IMG/VR virus record: IMGVR_UViG_3300031612_000077 | Location: 1 to 23,367 of that record | Length of the DNA: 23,367 bases | Direction: 5' to 3' (one strand) | DNA from: a virus | In this document: positions 1 through 9,818 of the stretch, piece by piece | Numbering within the stretch: the stretch's first letter is position 1 | Layout: each line of letters begins with the position of its first letter | Notes under the pieces: generated by a model | What the model was told of the DNA's origin: nothing | Seen by the model: only the letters and a program-made list of their open reading frames with translations | Databases searched by the model: none | Program-made: the position numbers and the translations under genes

Positions 1-49
1 ATATTCCCTCTCATGTGCCCCTTTTCTCTCATATTCCCTCTCATGTGCC
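1..49. repeat. 19-bp direct repeat, 30-bp period, at window edge
   Basis: The 19-mer ATATTCCCTCTCATGTGCC occurs exactly at 1-19 and 31-49, a period of 30 bp. The spacer between the copies is pyrimidine-rich. Because the first copy begins at the first base of the window, the array may continue to the left or mark a genome or contig end. Confidence 0.85.
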
Positions 50-95
50 TATGAGTCTATATACATTTTATTACTTATGCCATAAGGGGCCCCCC

Positions 96-254
96 TGACC
101 CGCCAGTCATTCCGTGACTCCAGACACTCTTTCAGTCACATTATGACTCCTGAGTCCACCTGAGTCACCTTATGACTACACGGTCAGAGTGTGACCAGAG
201 GGCTCTTGATAGTCACGGGCTGACTGATGAGTCACAAGTGGTGCTAGAGTTGAC
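96..254. repeat. Phased array of GTCA/TGAC sites with five GTCA-N5-TGAC palindromes
   Basis: TGAC occurs at 96, 115, 144, 173, 192, 221 and 251, and its reverse complement GTCA at 106, 135, 164, 183, 212 and 231. All 13 fall on a grid of about 9.7 bp, and the empty grid slots (for example GTCC at 154 and GTGC at 241) hold partial matches. Five 15-bp palindromes stand out: AGTCA-N5-TGACT at 105-119, 134-148, 163-177 and 211-225, and GGTCA-N5-TGACC at 182-196, where both arms change symmetrically. Their centres are 29, 29, 19 and 29 bp apart. This looks like a cooperative binding array for a dimeric protein, such as an operator, origin or partition-like site. The binding protein is unknown. Confidence 0.8.
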
Positions 255-289
255 AAGAGTAAGAGGGCGTGAGCGTGGTATTCTTAGGT

Positions 290-411: not shown

Positions 412-765
412 CATAGGGTAGCAATAGCCTTGTGAGCTCCAACGTGCGCTTGTGTGGGCTTTAGGCTATAGGCTTATACATTGTATAGACTAACCATAGA
501 TCGTACAGTACAGGGCAAATGTCTCACCTAAGCAAGTACGTGTCGTGTCTGAGTAAGTATTGTCTGGTTGTCTATGTTACTCGCATGCGTTCCTCTTTAT
601 GCGCTGGAGTGAATTAGGTGTAGTTTAGGTGGTGTCGTGTATTAGTTTGTATGTGTCGTGTTTAGGTACGTTTGGATTCATAGTGTCGGTATACTTAACC
701 CAACAACAACGCAAAGGGGCCATATGGGCGCTAATGCGAACCATTATCAATAAGGATTACATATC

Positions 766-4069: not shown

Positions 4070-4258
4070 ATGAGATGTAAATCGTGTGATAGACTATTAG
4101 AAGTAGAGATAGACAACACTAGTTTATGTGGTGCTTGTTTAACTGTATCTATGGATACTTCACTAACTACTAATTTAGAAGAACAAGAGGAGACCCTAAA
4201 CGAGCAATTAGAGTTTATTACAGACATAACAGAAGAGGACTATATACTATTGGAGTGA
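4070..4258 (+). CDS. Small zinc-ribbon protein
   Basis: This gene encodes 62 residues with AGAGGT upstream of the start. The N-terminus contains two CxxC knuckles: MRCKSCDRLLEVEI, then LCGACL about 15 residues later. This is a classic four-cysteine zinc ribbon (Cys3, Cys6, Cys21, Cys24). The rest is a long acidic tail rich in Glu (EEQEETLNEQLEFITDITEED). It is the last gene of the early small-gene block, before a 244-bp gap. Similar zinc-ribbon plus acidic-tail proteins occur in many phages without assigned function. Confidence 0.75.
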   Translation: MRCKSCDRLLEVEIDNTSLCGACLTVSMDTSLTTNLEEQEETLNEQLEFITDITEEDYILLE

Positions 4259-4502
4259 TATGTGCTAAACTCACTTAAGTTTCTTAGGCACTTAGGAACA
4301 TCCTTTAGAGTTAACATTAAGATTAACACTTAAAGGTTAAGACTAAAGAGCACTAAGCGGCCATAGCTGTAACTCTTATTTGAGTTAGTCTGAAATTAAG
4401 GTTGTCTTAGATTGATGTCTGAGTTACACTAATACACATAGGGTAAACAATAAGGTTTGTTCCTATAAGCGTACTAAAGCGAATACAAAAGGATAATTAA
4501 TT
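4259..4502 (+). promoter_or_regulatory. Intergenic control region ahead of the replication operon
   Basis: This gap holds no gene. Its first part contains a nested inverted repeat: CCTTTA 4302-4307 pairs with TAAAGG 4331-4336, and inside it GTTAA 4310-4314 pairs with TTAAC 4323-4327. No T-run follows, so it is not an ordinary terminator. The similar strings CACTTAAG, CACTTAGG and CACTTAAAGG recur across 4271-4336. A candidate promoter lies further downstream (4402-4430). The gap separates the early small-gene block from the SSB-to-DUF3310 operon, so it is the natural place for a middle promoter. Confidence 0.5.
4402..4430 (+). promoter_or_regulatory. Possible sigma70-type promoter
   Basis: TTGTCT (4402-4407) and TACACT (4425-4430) are separated by 17 bases. 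Each matches four of six bases of the sigma70 consensus. The position, about 70 bases upstream of the SSB gene and just after a structured gap, fits the start of the replication operon. The match is modest and untested. Confidence 0.35.
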
Positions 4503-4907
4503 ATGAGTCTATCAGTTTCTGAAGGTTATGTTGCATTCTGTCACGTTCTAACAGAAGACCAATATCAAGGTCAAGATGTAGGATATAACGTAACTATCTG
4601 TATGGATAAAGGGGAAGCTTGTCAGCTATCTAATATGGGTGTTAATGTAAAAGACTACAAAGGTGTAGGCCAACGTAAGTTTAAGTCTGGATATAGTATC
4701 GATGTCTTAGATGATAATGGTCAGCCTCTAATGTTGAAGGAAGAATTACCCCGAGGTGCTAAGATCAAAGTACAGTGGAAACAAGGTAATGTACACCCTC
4801 AGCATGGTCTAGGTACTTACGCCAACCGTATCAAGGTATTAGATATGGGTGATGGTGGTATTCCGTTAGACTTTGAAGGTAGCGAAGAGGACTCCACAGA
4901 CTTCTAA
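4503..4907 (+). CDS. Single-stranded DNA-binding protein, T7 gp2.5-like
   Basis: This 134-residue protein probably coats single-stranded DNA during replication and recombination. It reads as a compact OB-fold-like protein: beta-rich segments with basic and aromatic residues (YKGVGQRKFKSGY, KIKVQWKQGNVHPQHG, TYANRIKVLDMG). It ends in an acidic tail with a terminal phenylalanine (EGSEEDSTDF). In T7 gp2.5 and bacterial SSBs, the acidic tail with a terminal Phe contacts the other replication proteins. It is shorter than T7 gp2.5 (about 230 residues). The ATG is preceded by AAAGGA. It is first in the replication operon, after a possible promoter and before a terminator-like hairpin, so it may be the most abundant product. 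Confidence 0.7.
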   Translation: MSLSVSEGYVAFCHVLTEDQYQGQDVGYNVTICMDKGEACQLSNMGVNVKDYKGVGQRKFKSGYSIDVLDDNGQPLMLKEELPRGAKIKVQWKQGNVHPQHGLGTYANRIKVLDMGDGGIPLDFEGSEEDSTDF

Positions 4908-5736: not shown

Positions 5737-5922
5737 ATGAGTAATAAAGCAGAAGCACGTTACAAAGCAAAAGAAGTAGCTAGGTTGACTAAAGAGTATA
5801 ATACCTACATCGAAGGGTCTAAGATGAAAGAACCTTTTGGGGCTTATAACCTAGCCAAAGCTACCCTTATTTCAGCCATGTTAGTTAAGTTAGAGGGGAC
5901 ACTCAGTGAGTATCATATTTAA
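5737..5922 (+). CDS. Small basic helical protein, unknown function
   Basis: This gene encodes 61 residues with GGGGAG just before the ATG and starts two bases after the glutaredoxin-like gene. The protein is Lys/Ala/Glu-rich and probably one or two helices (MSNKAEARYKAKEVARLTKE). No motif was recognised. Its 3' end contains AGAGGGG, the ribosome binding site for the next gene, which starts inside it. Confidence 0.65.
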   Translation: MSNKAEARYKAKEVARLTKEYNTYIEGSKMKEPFGAYNLAKATLISAMLVKLEGTLSEYHI

Positions 5923-6250
5923 ACCTAAGATCCCTGAACGCTTTCAAGGGGAAGTACAGAAAAAGAAAGTAGTAATTAAGCCACCTGAGCCACCTAAGAA
6001 GGTTATTAGGAACTCGTGGATCTCAGACACAGTAGCTGTAAAGGTAAAGAAGCGTAAGTCCCCAGATTGGACACCTAGAGACCTGAACCTACTAGTAGAC
6101 TTAAGAGCAATGAATGTCCCTATCTATGATTGTAGTAGGATACTGAGACGCGCTGAGTCATCCGTTAGGGCCTGTATACACGTTTATGATCTATATGCAG
6201 GGATAAAGCACCAGAAGTTAGTAAACATAGAGAGGTTATTAAATGATTAA
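5906..6250 (+). CDS. Myb/SANT-like HTH DNA-binding protein, GTG start
   Basis: This gene encodes 114 residues and starts with GTG, justified by AGAGGGG seven bases upstream and overlap with the previous gene. The N-terminal half is basic and proline-rich (KKKVVIKPPEPPKK), a likely flexible linker. The C-terminal half, from SPDWTPRDLNLLVDLRAM through RRAESSVRACIHVYDLY, resembles a Myb/SANT-type helix-turn-helix: a Trp-initiated first helix, then a second helix and a recognition helix with Arg/Ser/Val. It probably binds DNA as a regulator of replication or middle transcription, or as an accessory to the neighbouring replication proteins. The stop overlaps the next start. Confidence 0.6.
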   Translation: MSIIFKPKIPERFQGEVQKKKVVIKPPEPPKKVIRNSWISDTVAVKVKKRKSPDWTPRDLNLLVDLRAMNVPIYDCSRILRRAESSVRACIHVYDLYAGIKHQKLVNIERLLND

Positions 6251-6470
6251 TGTAGCACTAACGGAAGAAACAGTAGATGGTATAGTCATCACAGAGTTGA
6301 AGTCTTTTTATAGTGTCTTAGATGAAGTATCTGATGACTGGTACTCTAAAGAAGAGGACAAGCAGAAAGACAGGCTCTGTCAATATGCTATCATTAATGT
6401 ATTATCACACTACCTAACAAGCGAGGAACATAAGAAATGGCTTCTTACACTAGAGAGAACGCAGAAGTAG
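6243..6470 (+). CDS. Small acidic protein, unknown function
   Basis: This gene encodes 75 residues, starts 8 bases inside the end of the HTH-like gene and overlaps the primase-helicase start by 34 bases. The protein is acidic and helical, with a DWYSKEEDKQKDRLCQYAII core and a C-terminal LTSEEHKKWLL segment. The extensive overlaps indicate tight translational coupling to the primase-helicase. The family is not recognised. Confidence 0.65.
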   Translation: MINVALTEETVDGIVITELKSFYSVLDEVSDDWYSKEEDKQKDRLCQYAIINVLSHYLTSEEHKKWLLTLERTQK

Positions 6471-8098
6471 AGAGTAGAGGGCCTTGCCCACGATGTAACT
6501 CTAAAGATAACTTAGTTAAGTATAAAGATGGTCACTCTAGCTGTTACTCAGTAGGATGCAATCACTTCGTAAACAGTAATACTAACACGACTACAGCGGA
6601 ACATAGGACAATGACCCCATCCCAAGTAAAGAAACCAACAGTAGACTTAGAGAAGGGCACTAGAGGAGCTATTCCAGACCGTAAGATCTCTGCAGACATT
6701 GCAGCTAAGTATGGTGTAACGATTGAGTATGATGCTAAAGGTCAGATCACTAAACATTACTATCCTTTCTTCAATAATGATACAAAGGTAGCACTTAAGA
6801 CCAGAGTAGTTAAAGACAAGCAATTCTATTGCAGTGGAGATCTAGGTTCCGCAGGTCTATTTGGTCAGCACCTCTTTGAAGGCAGCAACAGTCGGTTCAT
6901 TACAGTCACTGAAGGCGAGTTAGATTGTCTAGCAGTGTCAGAGATGTTTCACGGTAAGTGGCCTGTAGTAAGCCTAAAGAATGGCTCAGGCTCGGCTGTA
7001 AAGGGCATTAAGGAATCGCTTGAGTTCTTGGAGGGGTTCGAGTCTGTCATCCTATGTATGGATCAAGATCAGGCAGGTGAGGAGGCAGTAAAGAATGTAG
7101 TAGATCTGTTTAGCCCTAATAAGGTTAAGGTTATGTCTATGCCTCTTAAGGATGCCTGTGAGATGCTTAAGGCTGGTAAGGTTAAGGAGTTCACCCAGCA
7201 GTGGTGGTCTGCTCGCCCTCACCGTCCTGTAGGCGTTATCTCTCTATCAGATCCAGACAACTGGGATGTATTCATTAAGCGAGGTACTGAGGAGGTGACT
7301 CCTTTTCCCCATGCCTTCGGTACGCTTAATGCCATGATGAACGGAGGTATCGCTGCAGGAGAGGTGACAGTCGTAGGAGCTCTAACGTCAGTAGGTAAGA
7401 GTACAGTAGTCTATAACTTAGTCTATGGTATGTTGATGGAATCTAATAAACGTATTGGTTGTATCTTCTTAGAGTCCGATAGAGGTGAAACGATAGAGAA
7501 GCTCTTGTCTGTACACATAGGCAATAACATATCTAACATCCCTCAACCTGACCGAGACTACGATATGCTCCACAAGAAGTATTTGGAGTTAGCAGACACG
7601 GATAAGTTACACGTACTAGATCACTTAGGCAGTACAGACGCAGATGAACTCTTCAGTAAGATGCGCTACATGGTTAAGGGTTTAGACTGTGATGTACTTG
7701 TACTAGACCCCCTACAGGCTGCTGTGACCTCTAACGATAATGGTATTATTGATGAGTTCATGGATAGATGTTTGAAGTTATCTAAAGAGACTGGCGTCAG
7801 TATCATCATTATTTCTCACATGCGTAAACCTTCAGGTAAGGAAGCACATGATGTGAATGAGTATGATATGAAAGGTTCAGGATCTATCAACCAGATAGCA
7901 TTCAATACTATCCTACTTAGCCGTGATAAGATGTCAGAAGATGAGTATGCCCGTAACTGTACTAAGATACAGCTCGTTAAGTGTAGACGTACAGGTAATA
8001 CAGGTACTGCAGGGTGGTTATATTATAATCAATCTACGAGTCGCCTAGAGGCTGGGCTAGAGCCTATTATAAAGGAGACAGAAGGGTATGACTTCTAG
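6437..8098 (+). CDS. Primase-helicase, T7 gp4-like
   Basis: This 553-residue bifunctional replication protein would unwind DNA and synthesise primers at the fork. The N-terminal zinc domain has Cys17, Cys20, Cys36 and Cys41. A TOPRIM primase domain follows, with TEGELD (Glu159, Asp163) and MDQDQAGEEA (Asp209, Asp211). The C-terminal RecA-like helicase has the Walker A motif GALTSVGKST (Lys321), the Walker B motif VLVLDPLQ (Asp424) and an ISHMRKP segment (His461) typical of ring helicases. The length matches T7 gp4 (566). ATG 6437 has GAGGAA upstream. An internal Met59 after the zinc domain could start a helicase-only form, as in T7. It overlaps the DNA polymerase gene by 11 bases. Confidence 0.95.
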   Translation: MASYTRENAEVESRGPCPRCNSKDNLVKYKDGHSSCYSVGCNHFVNSNTNTTTAEHRTMTPSQVKKPTVDLEKGTRGAIPDRKISADIAAKYGVTIEYDAKGQITKHYYPFFNNDTKVALKTRVVKDKQFYCSGDLGSAGLFGQHLFEGSNSRFITVTEGELDCLAVSEMFHGKWPVVSLKNGSGSAVKGIKESLEFLEGFESVILCMDQDQAGEEAVKNVVDLFSPNKVKVMSMPLKDACEMLKAGKVKEFTQQWWSARPHRPVGVISLSDPDNWDVFIKRGTEEVTPFPHAFGTLNAMMNGGIAAGEVTVVGALTSVGKSTVVYNLVYGMLMESNKRIGCIFLESDRGETIEKLLSVHIGNNISNIPQPDRDYDMLHKKYLELADTDKLHVLDHLGSTDADELFSKMRYMVKGLDCDVLVLDPLQAAVTSNDNGIIDEFMDRCLKLSKETGVSIIIISHMRKPSGKEAHDVNEYDMKGSGSINQIAFNTILLSRDKMSEDEYARNCTKIQLVKCRRTGNTGTAGWLYYNQSTSRLEAGLEPIIKETEGYDF

Positions 8099-9818
8099 AA
8101 GAGTAGTATTAGATATTGAGGCTAATGGGTTCACTCCTGATAAGATCTGGTGTATCGTCTGTCAGGATGCGGATACTAATGAGGTAACTTACTACACTCC
8201 TCGTAATGTAAGAGAGTTCAGCCTAGAGGGTATCACAGAGATTATAGGCCACAATATCTTAGGCTATGACATTCCTGTGCTAGAGAGGTTACTCAATCTA
8301 GACTTTACAGGAATACAATTAACGGATACGTTAGTTATGTCTAGGTTGTTTAAACCTACTCGTGAAGGAGGTCACTCACTTAAGGTATGGGGAGAGAGGC
8401 TAGGTAATCTCAAAGGTGACTTCACAGAGTTTACCTACTACTCAGATGAGATGTTAGAGTACTGTATTAATGACGTAGCTGTAAACGTCAAGGTCTATAA
8501 CCATCTACTAGTAGAGGCTAAAGGATTCTCCCCTAAGTCAATACAGTTAGAGATGGACGTACACGCCATTATCTCTGAACAAGTTAAGAATGGTTGGCTG
8601 TTAGATGAACAGAAAGCCTTCATGCTCTTAGCTGAACTTAAAGAGAAGATGATAGAGGCAGAGGACACTGTACGTGAGCGGTTTACTCCACTTCCTATCT
8701 GGGTAGAGAAGAACTACCCTAAGAACCCTACTAAGAAGGATGGCACGGAAGCAGCCATTATGGTTAAACACAGGGAGAAGGGATACCACTATGATGATGA
8801 CTTCAGCTATGGTGTGTTTGAACACCCTATCTTTAACTTAGGTAGCCGACAGCAGATAGGACGTTACCTTATCCACTATGGCTGGACACCTCTAGAGTTT
8901 ACAGAGACAGGGAAGCCTAAGATAGATGAGCAGGTGCTAGAAGGAGTGGACATCCCTGAAGCTGTTATGATTAAAGACTACCTACTCCTACAGAAGCGTG
9001 TAGGAATGGTATCAAGCTGGATTGAATCGGTAGCAGATGACGGTAGAGTACATGGTTACGTTAACCCTATAGGCGCTCAGACAAACCGGATGAGTCACAG
9101 CAGCCCTAACGTAGCTCAAGTACCTGCCTCCTATAGTCCCTACGGTAAGGAATGCAGAGAATGTTGGATTGTACCTAAAGGGTATAAGCTAGTTGGTTGT
9201 GATGCTTCTGGTTTAGAATTAAGAATGTTAGCCTCTTACCTAAAGGATGAGGAGTACACTAAGCAGATCTTAGATGGTGACATTCATACCTACAACATGA
9301 ATATGGCAGGACTAACCAGCAGAGATCAAGCGAAGACTTTCATATACGCTTTTCTGTATGGCGGAGGTGACGTTAAGATAGGAGAGATCGTAGGCGGAGG
9401 AGCTAAAGACGGTAAGAAGATCAAGAAGACATTCTTTGATAGTATCCCAGCCCTAGAGAAGCTAATCACTCAAGTGAAGAGAGCATCTAACAGAGGATTC
9501 TTGAAGGGGTTGGATGGTCGTAAGATATGGGTTAAATCAGAGCACTCAGCCCCTAATTACCTCTTACAGTCTGCAGGTGCAATTGTTATGAAGCAAGCAC
9601 TTGTGTTATTATATGCTGCAGCTAAGAAGGAAAAGCTTGACTTTAAGTTTGTAGGCAATATACACGATGAATACCAAACACAAGTTCTAGAGGAGCACTC
9701 TGAACGATTCGGTGTACTAGCAGTAGAAGCCATCATCAATGCTGGTGTTGAGCTAAAGATGAACTGCCCCTTAGACGGGGAATCAAAGATAGGAAATAAC
9801 TGGTATGACTGCCACTAA
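8088..9818 (+). CDS. Family A DNA polymerase with proofreading exonuclease, T7 gp5-like
   Basis: This is the replicative polymerase, 576 residues. The 3'-5' exonuclease motifs are intact: Asp9/Glu11 (VLDIEANG), Asp61 (GHNILGYDIP) and Tyr125-Asp129 (YCIND). Polymerase motif A is CDASGLELR (Asp372), motif B is RDQAKTFIYAFLYGGG (Lys416, Tyr424) and motif C is IHDEY (Asp527, Glu528). The residue equivalent to E. coli Pol I Phe762 is Tyr420, as in T7. The C-terminus (GESKIGNNWYDCH) closely resembles that of T7 gp5. It is about 130 residues shorter than T7 gp5, and the thumb segment that in T7 binds thioredoxin is reduced. It overlaps the HNH gene downstream by 14 bases. Confidence 0.97.
   Translation: MTSRRVVLDIEANGFTPDKIWCIVCQDADTNEVTYYTPRNVREFSLEGITEIIGHNILGYDIPVLERLLNLDFTGIQLTDTLVMSRLFKPTREGGHSLKVWGERLGNLKGDFTEFTYYSDEMLEYCINDVAVNVKVYNHLLVEAKGFSPKSIQLEMDVHAIISEQVKNGWLLDEQKAFMLLAELKEKMIEAEDTVRERFTPLPIWVEKNYPKNPTKKDGTEAAIMVKHREKGYHYDDDFSYGVFEHPIFNLGSRQQIGRYLIHYGWTPLEFTETGKPKIDEQVLEGVDIPEAVMIKDYLLLQKRVGMVSSWIESVADDGRVHGYVNPIGAQTNRMSHSSPNVAQVPASYSPYGKECRECWIVPKGYKLVGCDASGLELRMLASYLKDEEYTKQILDGDIHTYNMNMAGLTSRDQAKTFIYAFLYGGGDVKIGEIVGGGAKDGKKIKKTFFDSIPALEKLITQVKRASNRGFLKGLDGRKIWVKSEHSAPNYLLQSAGAIVMKQALVLLYAAAKKEKLDFKFVGNIHDEYQTQVLEEHSERFGVLAVEAIINAGVELKMNCPLDGESKIGNNWYDCH

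Follow-up and report, generated by a model that had tools for sequence, protein, structure and literature searches.

What does a dense cluster of GTCA and TGAC tetramers do between two divergent operons of a marine phage? The window (the whole stretch of 23,367 nucleotides that was analysed) is a fragment of an uncultured marine phage genome, and a near-identical contig (L001/G001) extends it leftward. The leftward genes encode a DUF5681 protein, TerL, portal and capsid, while the replication operon runs rightward, and the cluster sits in the divergent gap with terS/terL on its left and the replication operon on its right. The DUF5681 protein (L217:5838-6320, minus strand, Pfam E 1e-6) was taken as TerS on the basis of its position beside terL. 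On the plus strand, the operon encodes three replisome proteins: a gp2.5-like ssDNA-binding protein (4503..4907; PHROG 112, E 1.3e-4), a primase-helicase with Toprim and DnaB_C domains (6437..8098; Pfam) and a family-A (T7-type) DNA polymerase (8088..9818; tblastn to phage DNA polymerases). The last two are the largest early ORFs (553 and 576 aa, respectively), and no RNA-polymerase-sized ORF was found in the early region of the window, which belongs to an incomplete genome. A T7-type origin consists of a phage RNA-polymerase promoter and an AT-rich region, and to the best of our knowledge the way in which replication starts in T7-like phages showing no RNA polymerase of their own is an open question.

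The array comprises 13 exact half-sites, without strand assignment, on a 9.65-bp grid at 96..254. Their starts are 96, 106, 115, 135, 144, 164, 173, 183, 192, 212, 221, 231 and 251, so that neighbours lie 9, 10 or 20 bp apart, and they build five GTCA-N5-TGAC palindromes, also unstranded: GTCATTCCGTGAC (106..118), GTCACATTATGAC (135..147), GTCACCTTATGAC (164..176), GTCAGAGTGTGAC (183..195) and GTCACGGGCTGAC (212..224). Dinucleotide shuffles of the whole window contained a mean of 0.31 such palindromes and a maximum of 2, and local shuffles of positions 71-270 a mean of 0.01; the local shuffles held a mean of 3.3 tetramers (maximum 9), none of 2000 reaching 13. Elsewhere in the window the best 156-bp stretch has 5 tetramers at most. 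The thirteen tetramers and five palindromes reported by the first-pass annotation are thus all present and exceed every whole-window or local shuffle, none of which gives a similar set of sites, and this confirms that the array is real. Within it, the linkers vary while the tetramers stay exact.

The same annotation had described the array as helically phased on a grid of about 9.7 bp. The regular grid holds, with a period of 9.6-9.8 bp (best 9.65) and a vector strength of 0.97 in the window, but the phasing does not, as the vector strength drops to 0.25 at 10.5 bp, the helical repeat of B-DNA; the relatives give the same behaviour. Palindrome centres are 29 or 19 bp apart on a lattice of 29 bp (3 x 9.65), so on relaxed B-DNA each palindrome is turned relative to the next. 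The array is a regular 29-bp lattice whose sites would not share one face of relaxed B-DNA, and its period implies either that the complex wraps or overwinds the DNA or that the lattice reflects a 29-bp unit. Selection for dyad symmetry, proposed because both outer bases change together in one of the five window sites, was not borne out in the relatives: among 25 distinct sites drawn from 13 contigs, 10 have complementary outer bases, against 12.3 expected. Just inside the half-sites, complementary bases occur in only 3 of the 25 (8.8 expected; p ~0.003), which suggests a polar site form, GTCAC-N3-ATGAC.

The array occupies a slot bounded on the left by a conserved element and a G/C-rich box (42-95) and on the right by a TTGACA tail (250-288). 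The left element, CATGTGCCTATGAGTCTATATACAT (42..66, plus strand; alignment A4), follows the pattern CATGTG..TATGAG..TATATACAT and has related forms in distant lineages. The box, GGGGCCCCCC (86..95, no strand assigned), may be a genome end or another landmark and takes the forms GGGGGCCCCCC, GGGGGTCCCCC or CCCCC-N-CCCCC in relatives. The tail, TTGACAAGAGTAAGAGGGCGTGAGCGTGGTATTCTTAGG (250..288, plus strand), is conserved in alignment A4, and a related tail also follows the array in L118, L179, L333 and L335. The slot adjoins the replication operon and lies away from both promoters. A near-perfect sigma-70 promoter (TTGACT-17-TATAAT) located 204 bp left of the array points at terS and is kept in L003, L009, L013, L118, L179, L333, L335, L371 and L364; at the threshold used for these relatives it was not found in L007 or L018. 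About 440 bp right of the array, the early leader TATACTTAACCCAACAACAACGCAAA (690..715, plus strand), present in L001, L003 and L203 and with one change in L007, is likely the start region of the early operon. The AT-rich sequence (64-69%) does not adjoin the repeats but is found 200-400 bp to their left. An Rfam search of positions 1-1300 matched no RNA element. Just right of the slot, a 64-bp stretch of GTATACA-type repeats (288-351) is missing from L001, L148, L198 and L082, L001 being otherwise identical to the window over 8-800, and this suggests repeat turnover there.

The position and spacing of the array are kept in many related phages. These relatives are all IMG/VR metagenome contigs, fragments in which the absence of a gene is weak evidence, and three contigs from the pattern scan whose repeats are coding (L126, L160 and L192) were left out. 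Arrays of three to six palindromes are present in L003 (polymerase 80% identical), L008, L009, L013 (76%) and many further contigs, one example of their spacing series being 10,9,20,9,20,9,20,9,10,9,20,9,10,20. At greater distance, three palindromes spaced 29 bp apart remain in L118 and L179 (TerL 48-49% identical) and two in L203 (polymerase 53%). The array is partly decayed in L312-L314. Partly decayed arrays were also seen in L007 (30 kb) and L018, at ~2018-2200 and ~4098-4280, where more sequence separates the G/C box from the array; the polymerases of these two contigs are 78-79% identical. The cultured relatives HTVC115P and HTVC103P have a matching gap with neither the array nor a DnaA-box cluster. 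A search of a phage collection gave no DNA match, and among the isolates listed TerL is at most ~28% identical. A search for the host through genome contigs led to mixed MAG bins, and no host was assigned.

The most informative relatives are those in which the slot contains something else. In L333, L334 and L335 it holds TTATCCACA (DnaA) boxes, after the same C box and before the same tail. Flanking sequence, C box and tail can be aligned with those of the GTCA type, but the array itself cannot. The eight slot boxes of L333 lie on one strand with spacings of 19, 33, 27, 11, 28, 11 and 11 bp, two near-boxes occupying the 33-bp gap, and L335 has both GTCA and DnaA sites. At the level of the longer contigs, G018 (which holds L333) has eight perfect same-strand DnaA boxes where G017 (which holds L118) has the GTCA array, and all nine exact TTATCCACA copies of G018 fall in this one region on one strand. 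The two phages are otherwise close, with identities of 91% for the primase-helicase, 81% for the polymerase, 88% for TerL, 82% for TerS, 87% for the capsid and 84% for the portal protein. In the 65 regions upstream of terL, which are non-independent loci including several near-duplicates, TTATCCACA occurs 41 times in 14 loci, compared with a mean of 1.2 and a maximum of 8 for 500 permuted words, while 279 kb of downstream sequence contain 3 copies. DnaA-box clusters are a feature of the sister contigs G018 and G019 and not of the window lineage, where reading the sequence of the slot revealed no DnaA box and the G017 contig has no cluster. The first-pass annotation had stated that relatives with the same gene order and no palindromes would speak against its interpretation; G018 is such a relative, but its slot is filled by DnaA boxes. 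Other lineages carry different short repeats after the C box, 10-12 or ~20 bp apart, and in several lineages no significant slot repeat was found. Upstream of terL in L344, L346, L364, L371, L391 and L412-L414, a C-rich box is followed by lineage-specific repeats such as ACCTATG, GCTTTAA, GGGACTA or AGTGTTG, an arrangement that recurs across a large uncultured group.

We consider it fairly probable that the array is the initiator-binding part of an iteron-type replication origin, in which the initiator array is exchangeable and the phage replisome is kept. The annotation had offered an operator or a replication-initiation array; the latter is best supported because close relatives carry DnaA boxes in the same slot. 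Since sisters with near-identical primase-helicase, polymerase and TerS carry DnaA boxes or other repeats there, the replisome appears to be kept while the initiator is exchanged. According to this, a putative dimeric DNA-binding protein would occupy each GTCA-N5-TGAC palindrome, and several dimers on the 29-bp lattice would form a single nucleoprotein complex that distorts or opens nearby DNA, allowing the phage primase-helicase, presumed to be loaded at the origin, to enter; the phage T7-type polymerase would then copy the genome. The slot would be modular, with the initiator that marks the start being exchanged and the replisome retained. The sites, their conservation, their position and their swap for DnaA boxes are seen directly in the contigs, and protein binding, strand opening and helicase loading are what we infer. 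Several specific, regularly spaced repeats, conserved in relatives, are what is expected of iterons. An origin is also favoured by the place of the slot next to the replication operon and apart from the promoters, and by GTCA-N5-TGAC repeats that unrelated contigs carry within putative HTH initiator genes. The points against an origin are that the AT-rich stretch does not adjoin the repeats, that the lattice is off 10.5 bp, that some slots lack repeats, that DnaA boxes may have regulatory or titrating roles as well and that no initiator protein was found; repeats in phase with the B-DNA helix, which the window lacks, are usual in plasmid iterons but not strictly required.

Iterons of lambda lie inside the initiator gene, whereas the window array is intergenic beside terS, has 29/19-bp spacing and comes with no initiator gene that we could find. 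The likeness to the lambda origin resides in the serial inverted-repeat sites within a phage replication region, which in lambda are bound by dimers of the initiator, the O protein (PMC5043065). The tandem TTATCCACA boxes of L333 and L334, some of them 11 bp apart and in the same slot, resemble a bacterial oriC, but the slot of the window lineage has no DnaA boxes and its half-site is GTCA. Regular arrays of initiator sites are also shared with iteron plasmids and RepA_N-type origins, including that of the Vibrio cholerae satellite PLE, which contain iterons (PMC7145576); however, those replicons encode their cognate Rep, and here no phage gene was found that tracks the array. Furthermore, the iterons of plasmids as a rule follow the B-DNA helical repeat (PMC5043065), which the window lattice does not. 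Literature searches about DUF5681 and about phage origins with DnaA boxes returned nothing that bears directly on this case.

Which protein could read the GTCA sites? Neither of the HTH-like proteins suggested earlier as binders can be upheld. The one encoded at 2001-2117 is missing from the array-bearing L003, L009, L013 and L007, and the one at 5906-6250 is missing from L003 and only ~30% identical in other array-bearing relatives, its putative recognition helix being unconserved while the half-sites stay exact. The model of the latter has four confident helices (mean pLDDT 73.5) and gave no match in the PDB at E <=0.001. Members of its family all begin with MSLIFKPKIP and have a four-helix C-terminus that evolves fast, and the gene adjoins that of the primase. 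A 99-aa winged-HTH-like protein of L118 is 50-54% identical in GTCA-type and DnaA-type phages and is not array-specific. TerS is disfavoured by its 82% identity across different arrays and by L318. Recognition of the half-sites as T7-primase GTC sites was also discarded: an A mostly precedes the half-sites, and the DnaA lineage does without them despite a 91% identical primase. When G017 and G018 were compared, the sole sizeable gene common to the GTCA-type L003 and L203 yet not found in G018 was ThyX-like; by sequence it looks like a ThyX thymidylate synthase and is not a candidate binder. We favour a binder encoded by the host, since in the contigs compared we found no phage gene whose distribution follows that of the GTCA arrays; fast-evolving small genes remain, and one of their products is a possible binder.

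The position of the array directly upstream of terS-terL brings to mind a packaging site, in which the G/C box would be the terminase cut (cos or pac) and the array the TerS binding site, like the R sites of lambda cosB or the pac boxes of SPP1. Repeats upstream of terminase genes are common to those systems and, here, they stand beside a conserved G/C-rich box; the ends of contigs L307, L295 and L008 lie -7, +5 and +10 bp from it. However, two of these three clustered ends (L307 and L008) come from one sample, contig ends are for the most part scattered and many contigs continue across the box. Moreover, the array changes completely between L118 and L333-L335 while TerS stays 82% identical, so that array and TerS are not seen to co-evolve, and in L318, whose TerS is 67% identical over the conserved domain, neither array nor C box occurs in the 4.5 kb upstream. 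We therefore regard a packaging site as unlikely, although the genome may end at the G/C box, an arrangement that could coexist with an adjoining origin.

An operator or enhancer through which a dimeric regulator serves the two divergent operons would fit the place of the array between them, and serial palindromes are typical of cooperative repressors. This is improbable because the terS promoter is 204 bp to the left and the early leader ~440 bp to the right, with no overlap with either; in addition, no phage regulator was seen to follow the array. That DnaA boxes replace the array is more easily explained by replication, even if DnaA is also a regulator. Decoy sites soaking up a host DNA-binding protein (DnaA in the sister phages), and thereby stopping host replication, would account for the dense, consensus boxes of those phages and for a motif that switches between lineages with no matching change in phage genes; a fixed place between conserved flanks would not be needed for this, and we find it very improbable. 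Finally, similar linkers between units in L118 and L013 could speak for tandem duplication of a 29-bp unit with no binding function, but this is hardly credible given that the window linkers differ around exact tetramers and that the array persists across lineages.

Returning to the exchangeable origin, we tentatively propose a broader generalization: these uncultured marine podoviruses, a broad group, may keep one replisome and swap the origin recognition cassette in place, some having host DnaA boxes and others the sites of a different protein that is probably also of the host. If this were true, the capacity to hijack one host initiator or another would be an evolvable plug-in, and a replication factor so far unrecognised would have GTCA-N5-TGAC as its site. 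Phages with near-identical primase-helicase, polymerase and TerS and different start-site arrays amount to a natural exchange experiment, which makes both host-driven initiation and the reader of GTCA-N5-TGAC directly testable. The motif is also found in other contexts, as unrelated contigs (L177:2410-3408, L206:3199-4470, L169:5126-5974 and L113:5233-6114) carry GTCA-N5-TGAC repeats at 22-24 bp within genes. These genes look like HTH replication initiators, and their repeats resemble lambda-O-type origins with the same half-site as the window array.
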